DNA of 64,000 bases from Sulfitobacter sp. SK012 (GTDB lineage: Bacteria; Pseudomonadota; Alphaproteobacteria; Rhodobacterales; Rhodobacteraceae), in the NCBI RefSeq assembly GCF_003352085.1, contig NZ_CP025804.1:4278001-4342000 (forward strand), in the 5' to 3' direction. The notes under the pieces are model-generated. The model did not search any database. It had not been told where the DNA came from and worked only from the letters and a program-made list of their open reading frames with translations. A program made the position numbers and the translations under genes. The number at the start of each line of letters is the position of its first letter. Positions within the stretch are counted from its first letter, which is position 1. Below, in pieces: positions 6,617-63,979 of this stretch.

Positions 6617-8527
6617 ATGCACATTGCTGATGACGTGACCAAGGCTATGACCACTGCCGGGCTGAACCTGATTGCTCAGGCGCTGTCCATCTATAACAAT
6701 GACCTGCGCCTCGTTGTCTGCAACGCCCCTTTTCAGCAGATGTTTTCTCTTCCCGATGCGCTTGTCACGCCCGGTGCTACATTTCAGGACAGCATCCTCT
6801 TTCTCGCTCAATCTGGCGAATATGGGCATATCGAAGACCTTGAGGCTTTCTTGACAGAACGGACAATGCAGGCCCGCGCATTCGAGCCGCATTACATGGA
6901 ACGCACCCGCGCCAATGGCAGAACCATTAGCGTTGAAGGATCACCCCTTCCCGATGGCGGTTGGGTCACCGTCTACACCGACATCTCCGCCACCAAAGCG
7001 CAGGAAACATTGCTGCGCGCCCGTGCTGGTGCGCTGAATGATCAGGTCCTTGCGCACACTGAACAATTGGCGGCGACCAACCGCGAACTTGCCGCCAGCA
7101 TCACAGCTCTTGAGGAAACCAAACGCCAGCTTACCGCCAGTGAGGCCCGTACGCGACTGACAACCGAAATGATGCCGGCTCATATCGCGCATGTGGACGC
7201 CACAGGTCACTATACGTACTCCAACCGCAAGCTATCATCGGTGCTGCCCGGCAGACACTCCGCGATCCTTGGCCGCCACATTCGTGACGCGCTTGGAACT
7301 TTTGCCCATGACAAAATCGCATCCGCGCTCGATACGGCCTACAGCGGCGCCGCAAGCGTTGTGGAATTCACCGATGATCCCAGCGCGCGTCGCATCCGTA
7401 CGGCCTTTACCCCTGACATGCAGGGCGGCGTCTATATCCTGTCGATGGACGTGACCGAAGAAACCCAAACCCGCGTGGCCCTACAACAGACCCGCAAACG
7501 CGAACTCGCCGCGCAGATGATCTCTGGCCTTGCGCATGATTTCTCGAATTTGCTGACCATCATCCTTGGCATGCAATCGCGCCTTGGCACCCTGCCCACC
7601 TTGCCCGGTGATGCCGAACCGCTGATCGAAGGCACGCTGGCTGCGGCCCGCCGTGGGGGTGCGCTGCTCAGCACAATCGCCGAGATGACAGGCGCGCGCA
7701 CCCTGCGCCCCGTTGCCACTGACATACCCACCCTCATGGGTGATCTCGCGACACTTGCCGCCGCAACGTTGCCAACGGCTGTGCAACTTGACCTCGATAT
7801 CCAGACACCACAAAGCCCTGTTTTACTTGACAAAGGCATGGTGCAAGACAGCCTGCTGAACCTCATTCTCAATGCCCGTGATGCTTGCGGTGCGTCGGGG
7901 CGTATCACCCTGACGGTTCGGCTGGTGCATGACACGTGGATCGAATGGCAACTCGCTGATACTGGTCCCGGCTTCTCAGACGCCGCACTCAAACGTGCCT
8001 TCGATCCATTCTTTACCACCAAAGGGGCCGAAGGGTCGGGCCTCGGGCTCTCCATGGTTTACGACATGACCAAAATCGCTGGCGGTGATCTGCGCCTATC
8101 CAACGGCCCAGACGGAGCCTGCGTTACACTACGCCTGCCCTACCGCGCCGCGGTCAGTGCTCCCACCGGTCTGGCTTTGCTTGTCGAAGACCGCGACGAT
8201 CTGCGCGCGTTGCTGCGCGACATGTTGATGGAAATCGGCCATTCCGTGATCGAAGCTGCCAGCGCCGATGAAGCCACCGCCCTGCTTGCCGATCTACCTG
8301 AGATTTCGCTGATCCTCTCAGACATCCAACTTGCAGGTGCCGCAACCGGCATCGACCTCGTGCGGCGTCTTGGCCCCGGCTGTCTGCCGCTGATCCTGAT
8401 GACCTCGTTGCCGCCCGACGCCCCCTTGTTCCTTGAGGCGCAAAAACACGCCCCCGTCTTGCGCAAACCCTTTGCTGCGTCTGATCTGACATCGTTGATC
8501 GCCCCGCGCGATGTGGCCGCCCAATGA
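6617..8527 (+). CDS. Hybrid sensor histidine kinase with two PAS-like domains and a C-terminal receiver
   Basis: 636 residues from the ATG at 6617 (AAAGGAG eight bases upstream). The N-terminal region (about 10-110) resembles PAS_7, then comes a coiled coil (about 130-175) and a second PAS-like segment. The HisKA box LAHDFSNLLT carries phospho-acceptor H307. The catalytic domain has NLILNARDAC (N box) and DTGPGFSD, FDPFFTTK, GSGLGLS (G boxes). A degenerate receiver domain follows, with D569 in LILSDIQL and a C-terminal RKPF. There are no transmembrane segments, so it senses an internal signal. It overlaps the next regulator gene by 4 bp and is divergent from the acyl-CoA synthetase/importer operon, which it may control. 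Confidence 0.9.
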   Translation: MHIADDVTKAMTTAGLNLIAQALSIYNNDLRLVVCNAPFQQMFSLPDALVTPGATFQDSILFLAQSGEYGHIEDLEAFLTERTMQARAFEPHYMERTRANGRTISVEGSPLPDGGWVTVYTDISATKAQETLLRARAGALNDQVLAHTEQLAATNRELAASITALEETKRQLTASEARTRLTTEMMPAHIAHVDATGHYTYSNRKLSSVLPGRHSAILGRHIRDALGTFAHDKIASALDTAYSGAASVVEFTDDPSARRIRTAFTPDMQGGVYILSMDVTEETQTRVALQQTRKRELAAQMISGLAHDFSNLLTIILGMQSRLGTLPTLPGDAEPLIEGTLAAARRGGALLSTIAEMTGARTLRPVATDIPTLMGDLATLAAATLPTAVQLDLDIQTPQSPVLLDKGMVQDSLLNLILNARDACGASGRITLTVRLVHDTWIEWQLADTGPGFSDAALKRAFDPFFTTKGAEGSGLGLSMVYDMTKIAGGDLRLSNGPDGACVTLRLPYRAAVSAPTGLALLVEDRDDLRALLRDMLMEIGHSVIEAASADEATALLADLPEISLILSDIQLAGAATGIDLVRRLGPGCLPLILMTSLPPDAPLFLEAQKHAPVLRKPFAASDLTSLIAPRDVAAQ

Positions 8528-9225
8528 AGCGCCCGCTGGTCAGCATTCTCGACGATGAACCCGAGATTCGCAGCCTGTTGTCAGACGTCCTGCAAGAGGC
8601 TGGATTTGACACGCTCAGCTTTGGCCGCGCATCTGCGTTTGAGGCCGCCCTTGCCCGTCAAACGCCCGATGTCTGCTTGGTGGATTTATCGCTGCCCGAC
8701 ACAGACGGGCTGACGCTCGTGCACCGGTTGGCGCTTGAAAAAGGCGCTGTGGTGATCATCATCTCTGGCCGCGCTCAGGTGCAGGACCGCGTCACCGGGC
8801 TTGAGCTTGGGGCGGACGACTACATCATCAAACCTTTTGATCCCGCCGAAGTTGTCGCCCGCATCCGCGCCCGCCTGCGCAGCAACCGCCCCGCGCCGCA
8901 AACCGCCAACACTGCCCGCTTCAACGATTGGACCGCGCATTTTGACAGATACATGCTCGAAGATGCCCAAGGGGTTGAGACGCCCTTTTCGCATGCCGAA
9001 GGCGAAGTGTTGCGGCTGTTTCTGGATGCACCCAAACGCCTGATCAGCCGCACACAAATGCAAGAAACCCTTGGCGGTGCTGCATCAGAGAGCTTTGACC
9101 GCGCGATGGACGTCCGCATCTCGCGCCTGCGTACAAAACTGCGGGAAGACCCCAAAAACCCGCAGCTGATCAAAACGATCTACGGAGCTGGGTATATTTT
9201 CCTTGGCGACGTGGTCTGGAGCTAA
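8524..9225 (+). CDS. OmpR/PhoB-family response regulator
   Basis: 233 residues. The receiver domain has acidic residues DDEPE at the start, phospho-acceptor D54 in CLVDLSLPD, and K103 in IIKPFDP. The C-terminal winged helix includes SRTQMQETL and RAMDVRISRLRTKL, ending with IKTIYGAGYIF, the standard OmpR wing. It starts with an ATGA overlap with the hybrid kinase, so the two form a phosphorelay pair. Target genes are unknown; the divergent transport operon is the nearest candidate. Confidence 0.92.
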   Translation: MKRPLVSILDDEPEIRSLLSDVLQEAGFDTLSFGRASAFEAALARQTPDVCLVDLSLPDTDGLTLVHRLALEKGAVVIIISGRAQVQDRVTGLELGADDYIIKPFDPAEVVARIRARLRSNRPAPQTANTARFNDWTAHFDRYMLEDAQGVETPFSHAEGEVLRLFLDAPKRLISRTQMQETLGGAASESFDRAMDVRISRLRTKLREDPKNPQLIKTIYGAGYIFLGDVVWS

Positions 9226-9242: not shown

Positions 9243-9461
9243 TCAGATGCCTGAACTGATCATTTCCCGAATTTTCACGGCCTTCTCGAAATGATCAAGC
9301 TCGTGCGTTTTGATCCACCACGTAGCCGCTTCCATCAACAGCTCGGGTTGGTCATTTTTGTTTGCAAAAAACGCATAGAACGACAGGCCCACCGTCGCGC
9401 CTTTCTTTGCAATCTTTTCATCACAAACAGCGATGGCTCTTTGCCTTAAACTCGATCTCAT
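9243..9461 (-). CDS. Small conserved protein of unknown function (DUF6500-like)
   Basis: 72 residues from the ATG at 9461, with GGGGGTAGC upstream. The sequence MRSSLRQRAIAVCDEKIAKK, then SFYAFFANKNDQPELL and WWIKTHELDHFEKAVKI, resembles a small roseobacter family that I recall as DUF6500; the assignment is from memory and uncertain. There is no signal peptide. An upstream extension to 9557 is unlikely because it would translate through the tandem hexamer array at 9509-9548. The gene stands alone between the convergent regulator gene and the amidohydrolase. Function is unknown. Confidence 0.6.
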   Translation of the reverse strand: MRSSLRQRAIAVCDEKIAKKGATVGLSFYAFFANKNDQPELLMEAATWWIKTHELDHFEKAVKIREMISSGI

Positions 9462-9508: not shown

Positions 9509-9548
9509 GTGCACACAACGGTGCACAGGTTGTGCACGCGGCGTGTAC
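9509..9548 (-). promoter_or_regulatory. Operator-like array: four GTGYAC hexamers at one-turn spacing (array A)
   Basis: GTGCAC occurs at 9509-9514, 9521-9526 and 9532-9537, and GTGTAC at 9543-9548, giving offsets of 12, 11 and 11 bp. The gene-proximal hexamer is 48 bp upstream of the start of the small gene at 9461. Read on the minus strand, the core GTGCACAACCTGTGCACCG matches 17 of 19 bases of the array at 62292-62330. Phasing on one face of the helix suggests cooperative binding by a dimeric regulator. The regulator is not known. Confidence 0.6.
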
Positions 9549-9586: not shown

Positions 9587-10771
9587 TTAACCGAGGTTCA
9601 CTACGGCTTGCGCCAACACCTCAACCCCGACCACCAAATCGGCCTCGTGGGTGTCCTCCTCAAAGGCATGGCTGATCCCTCCGATGGACGGCACAAAGAC
9701 CATCGCGACAGGCATCAACCGCGCCACATTGGTGGCATCATGCAACGCTCCAGACGGCATCTGTCGCCACTTGCCCGGCGTCACGGTTTCTGCTGCCGTC
9801 TCAACCGCTTGGCGCAACGTCGTATCCATCGCGACAGGCTCAAGACCCAACATTTGACCGAACCCCACGACCATCCCGCGCGCCGCTGCAATTTCCTCCG
9901 CTGTTTCGCGGATGATCTTTTCCATTCGGCCCAGTCGACCAGCGTCGGCATCACGCCACTGCATTGAAAACACGGCCTTTCCCGGAACAATCGACGAAGC
10001 GTTAGGGTGCAGCGATACATGCCCAAGTGTCCAAACCGTTTGCGGCGTTACCACATTCCGTAACCGCTCATTCAGCGTCTGATTGAACGTGGCAAGCGCC
10101 TGAAATGCATCGCGACGCAGGTGCATCGGCGTGGTTCCTGCGTGGTTTTGCTGGCCCTCAAAGGTAACCTTCATGTCGCGGATACCCACGATATCTGTGA
10201 CGGCACCTATCTGCTCTCCAGATTGATCCAGTGTCGGCCCTTGTTCAATGTGAAGTTCAATAAAACCCTGAAATTGCTTCGGATTTATGGGGCCGGTCAC
10301 CATCGAAGCCACCGCCTGCCGCGCCTCGCTAAGCCGAATTCCATCGTGATCTTTCAGCTCATCCGCATGATCTTGCGACAGATGCCCGGACCAAACAGCG
10401 CTGCCTGTGGTGACGCCAAATCGCCCCTCTTCATCTTGAAAAGACACAACTGACACGGGCCACTGAGACACCCGCGCCACCTCAAGCGCTGCGATCACGC
10501 CCAGCGCGCCGTCCAGCCAGCCCCCTTCGGGTTGGCTGTCTGAATGCGACCCCAGCAAAATCGACGTTTCATCCGCGAGCCCAAAGAGGTTGCCCATCGC
10601 GTCCATCTCGACCCGCAAACCTGCGTCCTGCATGCGCTCCGCCAGCCATCCTCGCGCGGCAACATCTGCATCAGAGTAGGCTGGCCGGACCACACCATTT
10701 CCGCTGCCTGCAGCACCGAAACTGCGCAACTCTTTCAAATCATTCAAAAACCGTACGGCATCAACGGACAT
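9587..10771 (-). CDS. M20-family Zn-dependent amidohydrolase (N-carbamoyl-amino acid hydrolase / allantoate amidohydrolase type)
   Basis: 394 residues. Metal-site motifs are [19 protein letters not shown] (about 72-90) and FQDEEGRFG (about 113-121), followed by IELHIEQGP, the usual third ligand region. [11 protein letters not shown] and [12 protein letters not shown] also mark the AmaB/HyuC/AllC family. These enzymes cleave N-carbamoyl groups or ureido compounds with two metal ions. The start ATG at 10771 follows GGGGGCAAT. It lies 65 bp downstream of the formate dehydrogenase gene on the same strand, with a strong palindrome between them. The substrate cannot be decided from sequence; ureide degradation would fit with uraH elsewhere in the window. 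Confidence 0.85.
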
Positions 10772-61851: not shown

Positions 61852-62220
61852 TCACTTCTTTTCACGCGCGGCACGATCTGCGCGCATCTCGTCAATCATC
61901 TGGTGCGCGTCGTTCAATATCCGTGGCACCGTATTGTCATTCGGATATCCCTTGATCTGCCCTGACAGCAACGCCGTCCAATACACCCGCAGCACCCGGT
62001 TTAGCCGCGTTTGATATCCCGGACCCAGCTTGCGAAACCAGCGCACCATGTCGCTGTCCAACCTCAGCGTCACGCGCGTTCTATGCGGTGCCACCGGCTC
62101 CCAGCCTTCCATCCCACTCCACTCAGTCGGCAGGCTTTCCCCCAGCCATTGCACGCTCAGCTCTGTCTGCAATTGCTCCAACTCATAAAGCATCTGGGTG
62201 TGAGCGTCTTTGTGCCGCAT
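61852..62220 (-). CDS. BrnA-like ribbon-helix-helix protein without an adjacent BrnT toxin
   Basis: 122 residues from the ATG at 62220 (GGAAGGGACACACC upstream). The middle segment TRVTLRLDSDMVRWFRKLGPG and YQTRLNRVLRVYWTALLSGQ is the BrnA_antitoxin (ribbon-helix-helix) signature; the N-terminal 65 residues are a helical extension. BrnA normally binds its own operator and the BrnT ribonuclease. No BrnT-like gene is within the window's flanking region, so this is an orphan, perhaps a transcription regulator. The array at 62292-62330 lies 72 bp upstream of its start. Confidence 0.8.
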   Translation of the reverse strand: MRHKDAHTQMLYELEQLQTELSVQWLGESLPTEWSGMEGWEPVAPHRTRVTLRLDSDMVRWFRKLGPGYQTRLNRVLRVYWTALLSGQIKGYPNDNTVPRILNDAHQMIDEMRADRAAREKK

Positions 62221-62291: not shown

Positions 62292-62330
62292 GTGCACAGG
62301 CGGTGTACATGTTGTGCACGTCTGATGCAC
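62292..62330 (-). promoter_or_regulatory. Operator-like array: four GTGYAC-like hexamers at exact 11-bp spacing (array B)
   Basis: GTGCAC at 62292-62297, GTGTAC at 62303-62308, GTGCAC at 62314-62319 and ATGCAC at 62325-62330: three successive offsets of exactly 11 bp. On the minus strand the core GTGCACAACATGTACACCG differs from array A (9509-9548) at only two of 19 positions. It lies upstream of the BrnA-like gene and on the other side faces the MocR-type regulator gene (start 62492). Ribbon-helix-helix dimers often bind such tandem short sites, so autoregulation is plausible. Confidence 0.62.
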
Positions 62331-62491: not shown

Positions 62492-63979
62492 ATGGCCCTG
62501 CCCGTCGAGACCTTCTTTCTACACCCTGACGCGCAGGGGACTCTGCAGTCGCAGATCCAACAAATGATTGCCCAAGGCATTTTGTCAGGTCGATTTCAGT
62601 GTCGGGAAAAGCTACCTTCAACGCGCAAGCTGGCCCAGCACCTTGGCGTCAGCCGTATCACTGTGACAATCGCCTATACCGAGCTTTTGGCGAATGATTA
62701 CCTGACATCACGCGGCCGATCCGGCTATTTTGTGTCTGATAATGCGCCTACGCCTCCCATTTTTGCGGCTCCTCAGGGCACAACGGATGCGGTCGACTGG
62801 ACCCGCGCCATTGGTCAACGTTTTAGCGGCGGCGTCACCCCCACCAAACCTCAGGACTGGGCCGAGTACCGCTATCCGTTTGTTTATGGTCAAGCCGATA
62901 GAACGTTGTTCGATCACGCGAATTGGCGGCTTTGCGCCTTGCAGGCCCTGGGGCAGCGCGACTTTACGTCTATGACTACGGACTACTACGATCAGGATGA
63001 TCCAAACCTCATCGAGTTCATCGCACGTCACACGCTGCCCCGCCGCGGCATTTCTGCAGCGCCAGAGCAAATCCTGATCACGCTTGGGGCCCAGAATGCG
63101 CTTTGGCTGACCGCTCAGGTTCTCCTGACACAGCGCCGCCGCGCCGCGCTCGAGGACCCCTGTTATCATGCCCTGCGCGACATTCTGATCCAGTCACGCT
63201 GCCATGTGACACCTGTGCGCGTCGATCAATACGGAATTCCGCCCGAGGCAATTCCACCAGATACAGACGTAATTTTCACAACGCCCAGCCATCAATGCCC
63301 CACCAACGCGACCATGCCGATGGAGCGCCGTCGCGCCCTTCTGGCGCGCGCCCGCGATATGGGCGCGCTGATCGTTGAAGATGATTACGAGTTCGAAACC
63401 TCGTTCCTGCGCCCTCCCTCTCCCGCGCTTAAATCGCTCGATAAGGATGGCCGCGTGATCTACGTCGGTAGCTTCTCTAAATCGCTCTTTCCAGGGCTGC
63501 GTCTGGGATATCTGGTAGGCTCTGAGCCCTTTATCCGCGAGGTCCGCGCCCTGCGGGCCTCCGTGCTGCGCCATCCCCCCGGTCATATTCAACGTACCGC
63601 TTCGTATTTCCTGTCGCTGGGCCATTATGACGCCCTCATTCGCCGGATGGCCGGCGCGCTAAACGAACGCCGCACTACGATGGAGGCCGGGATTGAACGC
63701 TACGGTCTACATATTGCCGGCCAAGGCGCGCATGGTGGATCGTCCTTTTGGATGCGCGCACCAGAGCATGTCGACACCGAACAGCTTGCCCGCAGCCTCA
63801 AATCGCGAGGGGTCTTAATCGAACCTGGCCGTTCGTTTTTTGGCGGCGCGCACCAAGCAACGAATTTCTACCGGTTAGGCTATTCATCCATTCCGGTGGG
63901 GCGCATTTCGGAGGGCTTGAAAGAGATCGCAGCGGCAATTTCTCAAGCCCCAGCATCTGGCCTTAGCCCAGCGACGTAA
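62492..63979 (+). CDS. MocR/PdxR-family transcriptional regulator (GntR HTH plus aminotransferase fold)
   Basis: 495 residues, complete. N-terminal GntR winged helix (about 15-85): GRFQCREKLPSTRKLAQHLG and VSRITVTIAYTELLANDYLTS. The C-terminal fold-type I aminotransferase-like domain (about 120-485) has TLGAQNALWLTAQVLL, VEDDYEFETSFL and the PLP lysine in YVGSFSKSLFPGLRLGYL. Such regulators use PLP-amino compounds as effectors, as PdxR does with PLP or TauR with taurine. No target enzyme genes are within view; the next gene downstream is beyond the window. Confidence 0.92.
   Translation: MALPVETFFLHPDAQGTLQSQIQQMIAQGILSGRFQCREKLPSTRKLAQHLGVSRITVTIAYTELLANDYLTSRGRSGYFVSDNAPTPPIFAAPQGTTDAVDWTRAIGQRFSGGVTPTKPQDWAEYRYPFVYGQADRTLFDHANWRLCALQALGQRDFTSMTTDYYDQDDPNLIEFIARHTLPRRGISAAPEQILITLGAQNALWLTAQVLLTQRRRAALEDPCYHALRDILIQSRCHVTPVRVDQYGIPPEAIPPDTDVIFTTPSHQCPTNATMPMERRRALLARARDMGALIVEDDYEFETSFLRPPSPALKSLDKDGRVIYVGSFSKSLFPGLRLGYLVGSEPFIREVRALRASVLRHPPGHIQRTASYFLSLGHYDALIRRMAGALNERRTTMEAGIERYGLHIAGQGAHGGSSFWMRAPEHVDTEQLARSLKSRGVLIEPGRSFFGGAHQATNFYRLGYSSIPVGRISEGLKEIAAAISQAPASGLSPAT

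Follow-up and report, generated by a model that had tools for sequence, protein, structure and literature searches.

Several described systems resemble in part the phased repeat arrays and the small BrnA-like protein of Sulfitobacter sp. SK012 reported here. BrnA of the BrnT/BrnA pairs shares PF14384 with this protein and likewise has an operator ahead of its own gene; unlike those pairs, the present gene has no toxin partner seen in its own window (the whole 64-kb stretch of DNA analysed), is in most cases transcribed away from a prfC-like, ketoacyl-synthase-like or GntR-type gene, and is accompanied by chromosome-wide arrays whose word changes between lineages. In excerpts of PMC9499535, Omega/ParB of pSM19035 belongs to the RHH family and acts on short contiguous repeats (parS), of which at least four are required for full activity and in which a head-to-tail orientation of the heptads is possible. 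These are gapless 7-bp heptads of a plasmid centromere, whereas the arrays here consist of 11-bp units in 2–5 copies and are dispersed over the chromosome. SlmA is described as TetR-like in an excerpt of PMC3573117, and its sites as chromosome-dispersed and commoner towards the origin in an excerpt of PMC4117426. The likeness to SlmA and Noc lies in the dispersed sites of a DNA-binding factor, here with a gap at ter. Noc is ParB-like, and we know of no oriented arrays for either factor. PF14384 is the only Pfam family matched above cut-off by the BrnA-like protein, which is thus neither TetR- nor ParB-like and, judged by its domain content, is not a SlmA/Noc member and would at most work alike. 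KOPS/AIMS-type sequences share the replichore orientation, but they are short single words that are dense near ter, whereas the present arrays are sparse and missing there. ZapT of Caulobacter was set aside as a parallel, being annotated as a MerR-family protein with mostly intragenic sites near ter in an excerpt of PMC7188993. A literature search covering the titles and the beginnings of abstracts of the papers listed found no description of these arrays or of such a BrnA-like system.

The features of the window that bear on the analysis are as follows.

9243–9461, minus strand: DUF6500 small gene (PF20110, E 5.9e-28), downstream of array A; a role as target is not indicated.
9509–9548, plus strand: array A, with GTGCAC at 9509, 9521 and 9532 and GTGTAC at 9543 (offsets 12, 11 and 11).
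9587–10771, minus strand: M20-peptidase-family gene (Pfam), with its 3' end 38 bp from array A.
61852–62220, minus strand: orphan BrnA-like protein of 122 aa, the proposed array binder (PF14384, E 1.4e-13; strand-residue conservation in 59 homologues).
62292–62319, plus strand: array B, with GTGCAC at 62292, GTGTAC at 62303 and GTGCAC at 62314 (offsets 11 and 11).
62492–63979, plus strand: GntR/aminotransferase-type regulator gene (Pfam), transcribed away from the BrnA-like gene, with array B between the two.

The M20-peptidase-family gene reaches its stop codon 38 bp ahead of array A, and 47 bp separate the array from the DUF6500 gene, a gap that the initial annotation had given as 48 bp. Two three-unit stretches of array A are among the genome-wide matches. 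Array B lies 71 bp upstream of the start of the BrnA-like gene. The four units of array A and their offsets, as first reported, match the exact unit positions, and the reported agreement of the two arrays at 17 of 19 positions was reproduced on the gene-ward reads, i.e. GTGCACAACCTGTGCACCG for array A and GTGCACAACATGTACACCG for array B. The GTGYAC word alone is not in excess in the window (53 occurrences, 60.5 expected); triples at 10–12-bp spacing gave 4 strand-hits versus none in 300 first-order Markov copies. The claim that only two clusters exist holds within the 64-kb window, where no third was found, but not genome-wide, where 16 arrays are present. Genes for a PAS-type hybrid histidine kinase and an OmpR-type response regulator (window positions 6617–9225) end 283 bp from array A.

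In the whole genome (5.18 Mb, four contigs), C1 (4.79 Mb) carries every one of these 16 occurrences of the three-unit pattern, defined as three GTGYAC words with 4–6-bp spacers. The pattern read backwards served as the control and gave no match in this genome, and the spacing is therefore not common by chance; commonness at random sites had been named as fatal to the operator idea. Among 394 family genomes, which are an even draw with complete per-genome match totals, 28 contain the pattern, with up to 27 + 29 strand hits and a control total of 3. In 39 other relatives, it was present in 9 of 23 congeners and in none of 16 members of other families, and 78 of 80 loci in a named species collection, among the matches listed, bear names recognised as Rhodobacterales or its families; Leisingera and Tateyamaria are two of the array-bearing genera. 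Array-bearing contigs labelled Flavobacteriia/Cupriavidus (L213, JAHBAN010000093.1; L220, JAPSLP010000006.1) are probably mis-binned Rhodobacterales. The array unit is directional, about KGTGYACR-N3, and is repeated head-to-tail in an 11-bp phase; within the own genome, the spacers vary and the hexamer and phase are constant. Mixing of GTGTAC and GTACAC was seen in 0 of 34 arrays, an outcome favoured by the search pattern itself; the gltD sites, selected without that bias, agree by eye at 11-bp spacing.

The arrays are almost exclusively intergenic, both for GTGYAC (33 of 34 arrays; 77 of 80 named loci among the matches listed) and for two words of other lineages described below (GGCTGM, 29 of 30 loci; GTATGG, 10 of 10). 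Of the pooled contexts, 94 are tandem (84.1 expected), 41 convergent (28.1) and 19 divergent (41.8), the expectations being taken from the intergenic length of the own genome (p 6e-5; the pooled sets may share genomes). In tandem contexts, the array strand agrees with the gene direction in 20 and opposes it in 17 of the named loci listed, and the corresponding numbers for the GGCTGM and GTATGG loci are 14 and 12; array strand is unrelated to gene direction. Neighbouring genes, named by eye, are functionally unrelated (gltD, glyS, an ABC-F gene and others). An array is present 3' of gltD in the own genome and at three other loci, with at least two units in 9 of 29 other congeners in which the locus is visible, and also in Leisingera, Lentibacter and Paracoccus contigs. 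Conservation at orthologues, on which the operator idea had been staked, was seen for gltD and the BrnA-like gene but not for array A, since neither of its flanking proteins recurs beside arrays in the sample of loci compared.

The concentration in promoters expected of a classical operator or regulon was not found, the BrnA-like promoter being the exception. The initial annotation had proposed a small regulon of two genes; this is unsupported because arrays occur genome-wide (16 here and dozens of hits in some other genomes, with functionally unrelated neighbours) and because divergent gaps hold fewer of them, and convergent gaps more, than expected. The operator idea survives for array B, upstream of the BrnA-like gene, but most array places are not promoters. 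The same counts bear on a broader alternative, namely that the BrnA-like protein is a global transcription regulator that represses or activates the array-flanking genes as a large regulon. The conserved array upstream of its own gene would suit such a regulator, as would the 5' flanks that do occur and a median distance of ~100 bp between arrays and gene starts, but the depletion of divergent and enrichment of convergent gaps, the indifference of array strand to gene direction and the unrelated neighbours make it unlikely.

The positions of ori and ter were judged by eye, using the skew of sampled stretches together with the polarity of GGGNAGGG, which served solely as a replichore marker, and also dnaA in the own genome and G238. 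Of 15 arrays in the own genome (the array at 4063 kb, which matches both strands, was left out), 11 have the GTGYAC strand as the lagging one; the same holds for 9 of 10 in G238, 10 of 11 in G007 and, weakly, 15 of 24 in G438, i.e. 45 of 60 in total (p 1.3e-4). Two other-word genomes examined afterwards follow the same rule (6 of 7 in G088 and 10 of 13 in G387; together 16 of 20, p 0.012), and the overall number is 61 of 80 arrays, although these counts are partly dependent because some arrays are orthologous. GC skew was rejected as the cause of the orientation, since in G238 and G007 the G-rich GTGYAC strand is the lagging one, contrary to the skew. The gap holding ter is the largest in five of six chromosomes and ranks second in G007, where it falls 1 kb short (the chances multiply to 4e-4 if the ranks are independent), and only 4 of the 61 arrays of the first four genomes are within 0.2 of ter (p 0.006). 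A pooled Kolmogorov–Smirnov (KS) test of the distance to ter for these 61 arrays was not significant (p 0.089); the depletion at ter of chromosome-wide sites that would liken the system to SlmA/Noc is seen in the gap ranks. All 61 arrays are on the main contig, and those of G387 are found on C2 and C3 as well. C1 and C2 of G000 contain nine near-identical short matches to the DnaA model (~102 aa, in frames of 153–270 aa), which we assume are perhaps a multicopy IstB-type insertion-sequence ATPase. Because the arrays are intergenic whatever the gene direction, avoid ter and are oriented with replication, those other than array B may, with less certainty, be dispersed marks rather than operators, serving chromosome organisation or a link between chromosome and cell cycle.

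The PF14384 match of the BrnA-like protein scores 51.4 bits against a gathering score of 26.1, and the family was likewise found in all 59 members of the homologue alignment and in all five others tried; we take PF14384 to be a family of ribbon-helix-helix DNA binders. The predicted strand comprises residues 47–55 (RTRVTLRLD), hereafter s1–s9, with R49 as s3 and R53 as s7. In an AlphaFold model (pTM 0.37), helices 56–64 and 69–86 follow the strand segment and no strand is assigned; PDB searches with the sequence and with this model returned no match. A protein database search yielded 87 homologues, all with PF14384, of which the named ones belong to Rhodobacterales genera or unassigned MAGs. 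The divergent partner of the gene, assigned by eye, is RF3-like (prfC) in 17 loci and ketoacyl-synthase-III-like in 17, and it is a GntR-type regulator in seven loci of the own genus, including that of SK012. Three nearby small ORFs of the window, considered as a BrnT toxin partner, have no Pfam match, and among the ten largest clusters of neighbouring genes the sole recognisable toxin candidate was a PIN-like gene at two loci. In L326 (G050) and L368 (G407), the BrnA-like gene is followed in tandem by a gene judged PIN-domain-like by eye. Fragmented or shortened copies of the BrnA-like gene are present in three congeners (L411/L425 in G022, L412 in G463 and L422 in G461), of which G022 keeps its arrays. 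G017 has two BrnA-like genes of different subclasses (L406 and L424), each with a GTRCAC-type array upstream.

Homologues at E <= 1e-8 were identified in 86 of the 394 family genomes, i.e. in 20 of 28 array-positive versus 66 of 366 array-negative genomes (Fisher 6e-9), and 11 of the 17 strongest matches are in array-positive genomes. Within the genus, at 1e-6, the homologue is present in 9 of the 14 genomes that have arrays and in 2 of the 14 that have none (p 0.018), where having arrays refers to the three-unit pattern, or two units for four genomes, and the gene of G022 is counted as present though in pieces. The gltD array and the BrnA-like gene occur together in eight genomes, the array alone in two, the gene alone in three and neither in 17 (p 0.001). 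Arrays without a detected homologue were found in 8 of the 28 family genomes at 1e-8, including G287 and G185, and in 5 of the 14 congeners at 1e-6, including G015; none of the 20 array loci of G015 (eight), G287 (eight) and G185 (four) has a BrnA-like gene beside it.

Most homologues have an upstream array with an 11-bp period, the word of which differs by lineage: GTGCAC/GTACAC, ATGCAC, GTATGG, GTCTGG, GTCTTG, GTCGGN, GTACAT, GGCTGC, CATAAC and others (framing partly by eye; L333, identical to L032, and the broken copies L412, L422 and L425 were left out of this survey). In 72 upstream regions, from which L333 was likewise omitted and to which L242, L244 and L032 were admitted through their arrays, the mean self-match at lag 11 is 16.93 versus 11.00 after shuffling (+5.9), that at lag 22 is 14.24 versus 10.88 (+3.4), and the excess at the remaining lags between 4 and 25 is 0.73 at most. 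The 11-bp signal is individually significant at p < 0.05 in 57 of these promoters and at p < 0.01 in 48; in 15 it is not significant. Words read from promoters therefore yield predictions of genome-wide arrays. GGCTGM gave 18, 29 and 36 strand hits in G387, G415 and G249, respectively, versus 0 in the control and 0 in three comparison genomes, but it was not found genome-wide in G048 and G108, although their promoters hold such units. GTATGG gave 125 strand hits in G105, 16 in G143, 9 in G088 and 3 in G154, with one control match (in G143), none in G119 and 0 in three comparison genomes. The promoter of G108 is mixed, with GTGCAC beside GGCTGA and GGCTGC, and looks transitional between words. 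GTTAAC/TTAACC words, which strike us as reminiscent of CtrA half-sites, often flank arrays and are also seen between the array and the BrnA-like start (by eye; L001, L014 and L015).

The recognition words covary with two residues of the predicted strand. Of 91 homologues, 64 have R and 24 have K at position s3, and RTRCA pairs at 11–12 bp are present upstream of 50 of the 64 genes with R versus none of the 24 with K (p 4e-12). Among the RTRCA arrays, the first base of the word is G in 39 of 41 when s7 is R (one A, one tie) and A in eight of nine when it is not (one tie; p 2e-8); both p values ignore relatedness. N at s5 occurs in two proteins, both associated with GTCTT words. On the best tree, for which the strand columns were left out, path-disjoint pairs gave 8.7 same, 0 opposite and 5.3 undecided for s3, and 6, 0 and 0 for s7; supported branches alone leave three pairs for s3 and one for s7, none opposite, which are too few for significance. 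This set left out L333 (identical to L032), the broken copies L412, L422 and L425, and L318 (internal stops); L242, L244, L032, L205 and L241 entered through their arrays, and the fragment L411 was additionally left out of the tree-based tests. Covariation at s3 and s7 would fit the expectation for a strand whose alternate residues read bases, and the pattern shown across lineages is one in which protein and arrays change their recognition word together. These data bear on a second alternative, that another protein binds the arrays and the BrnA-like gene is merely one conserved target: the genomes that have arrays but no detected homologue (G015, G287, G185 and others) speak for it, but covariation of strand residues with the word is not expected of a mere target, and we regard such a binder as quite improbable.

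REP-like repeats, mobile or recombinogenic and with no binder of their own, would also be dispersed and intergenic, with lineage-specific spacers, but the constancy of hexamer and phase amid spacers that vary within one genome, the orthology of some sites across genera and the tie to one gene leave this reading very little probability. The OmpR-type response regulator encoded beside array A (8524–9225) has a Trans_reg_C domain, and PhoB-like regulators bind 11-bp direct repeats, so head-to-tail 11-bp repeats near its gene recall such sites, but nothing beyond this ties its presence or sequence to the arrays, and it is an exceedingly improbable binder. RNA hairpins, in which GTGYAC repeats would pair in the transcript as 3' elements, are conceivable through G-U pairing and the frequent position of arrays shortly past stop codons, but are largely refuted and scarcely credible, because array strand is unrelated to the transcribed strand and the GTATGG and GTCTTG words of other lineages cannot self-pair.

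The BrnA-like protein, put forward in the initial annotation as one candidate partner, has gained strong support from co-occurrence, the array ahead of its own gene in other genera, the promoter words found genome-wide and the residue–word covariation. The likeliest reading is that of a DNA-binding protein that regulates its own gene and organises the chromosome. That the product of 61852–62220 binds the arrays is, in our judgement, highly probable. One unit of the protein may occupy each repeat on the same helix face, cooperatively, with strand residues s3 and s7 reading the repeat. On the evidence linking protein and arrays, array B looks like a true autoregulatory operator and is likely to be one, through which binding would adjust the level of the protein itself. 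To the whole statement, i.e. that the protein binds the family of arrays A and B and has a chromosome role, we lean with some reserve. More tentatively still, it can be suggested that an ex-antitoxin has become the binder of chromosome-wide, replication-oriented, terminus-free intergenic marks in Rhodobacterales, with a word that was repeatedly rewritten in the protein and dozens of sites together, and with a role in nucleoid occlusion, segregation or replication-coupled layout.

It has long been asked how a DNA binder with many sites can switch to another recognition word and still function, and here the protein, the array of its own gene and up to 125 genomic strand-hits (G105) can be read together across many lineages. 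PRDM9 and centromere proteins are fast-evolving binder/site pairs, and, if the above is true, this ex-antitoxin system would be a bacterial counterpart of their turnover. Annotation as an orphan antitoxin may hide another function, and in Rhodobacterales the BrnA-like protein may be considered a candidate for a role in chromosome organisation or division coupling.
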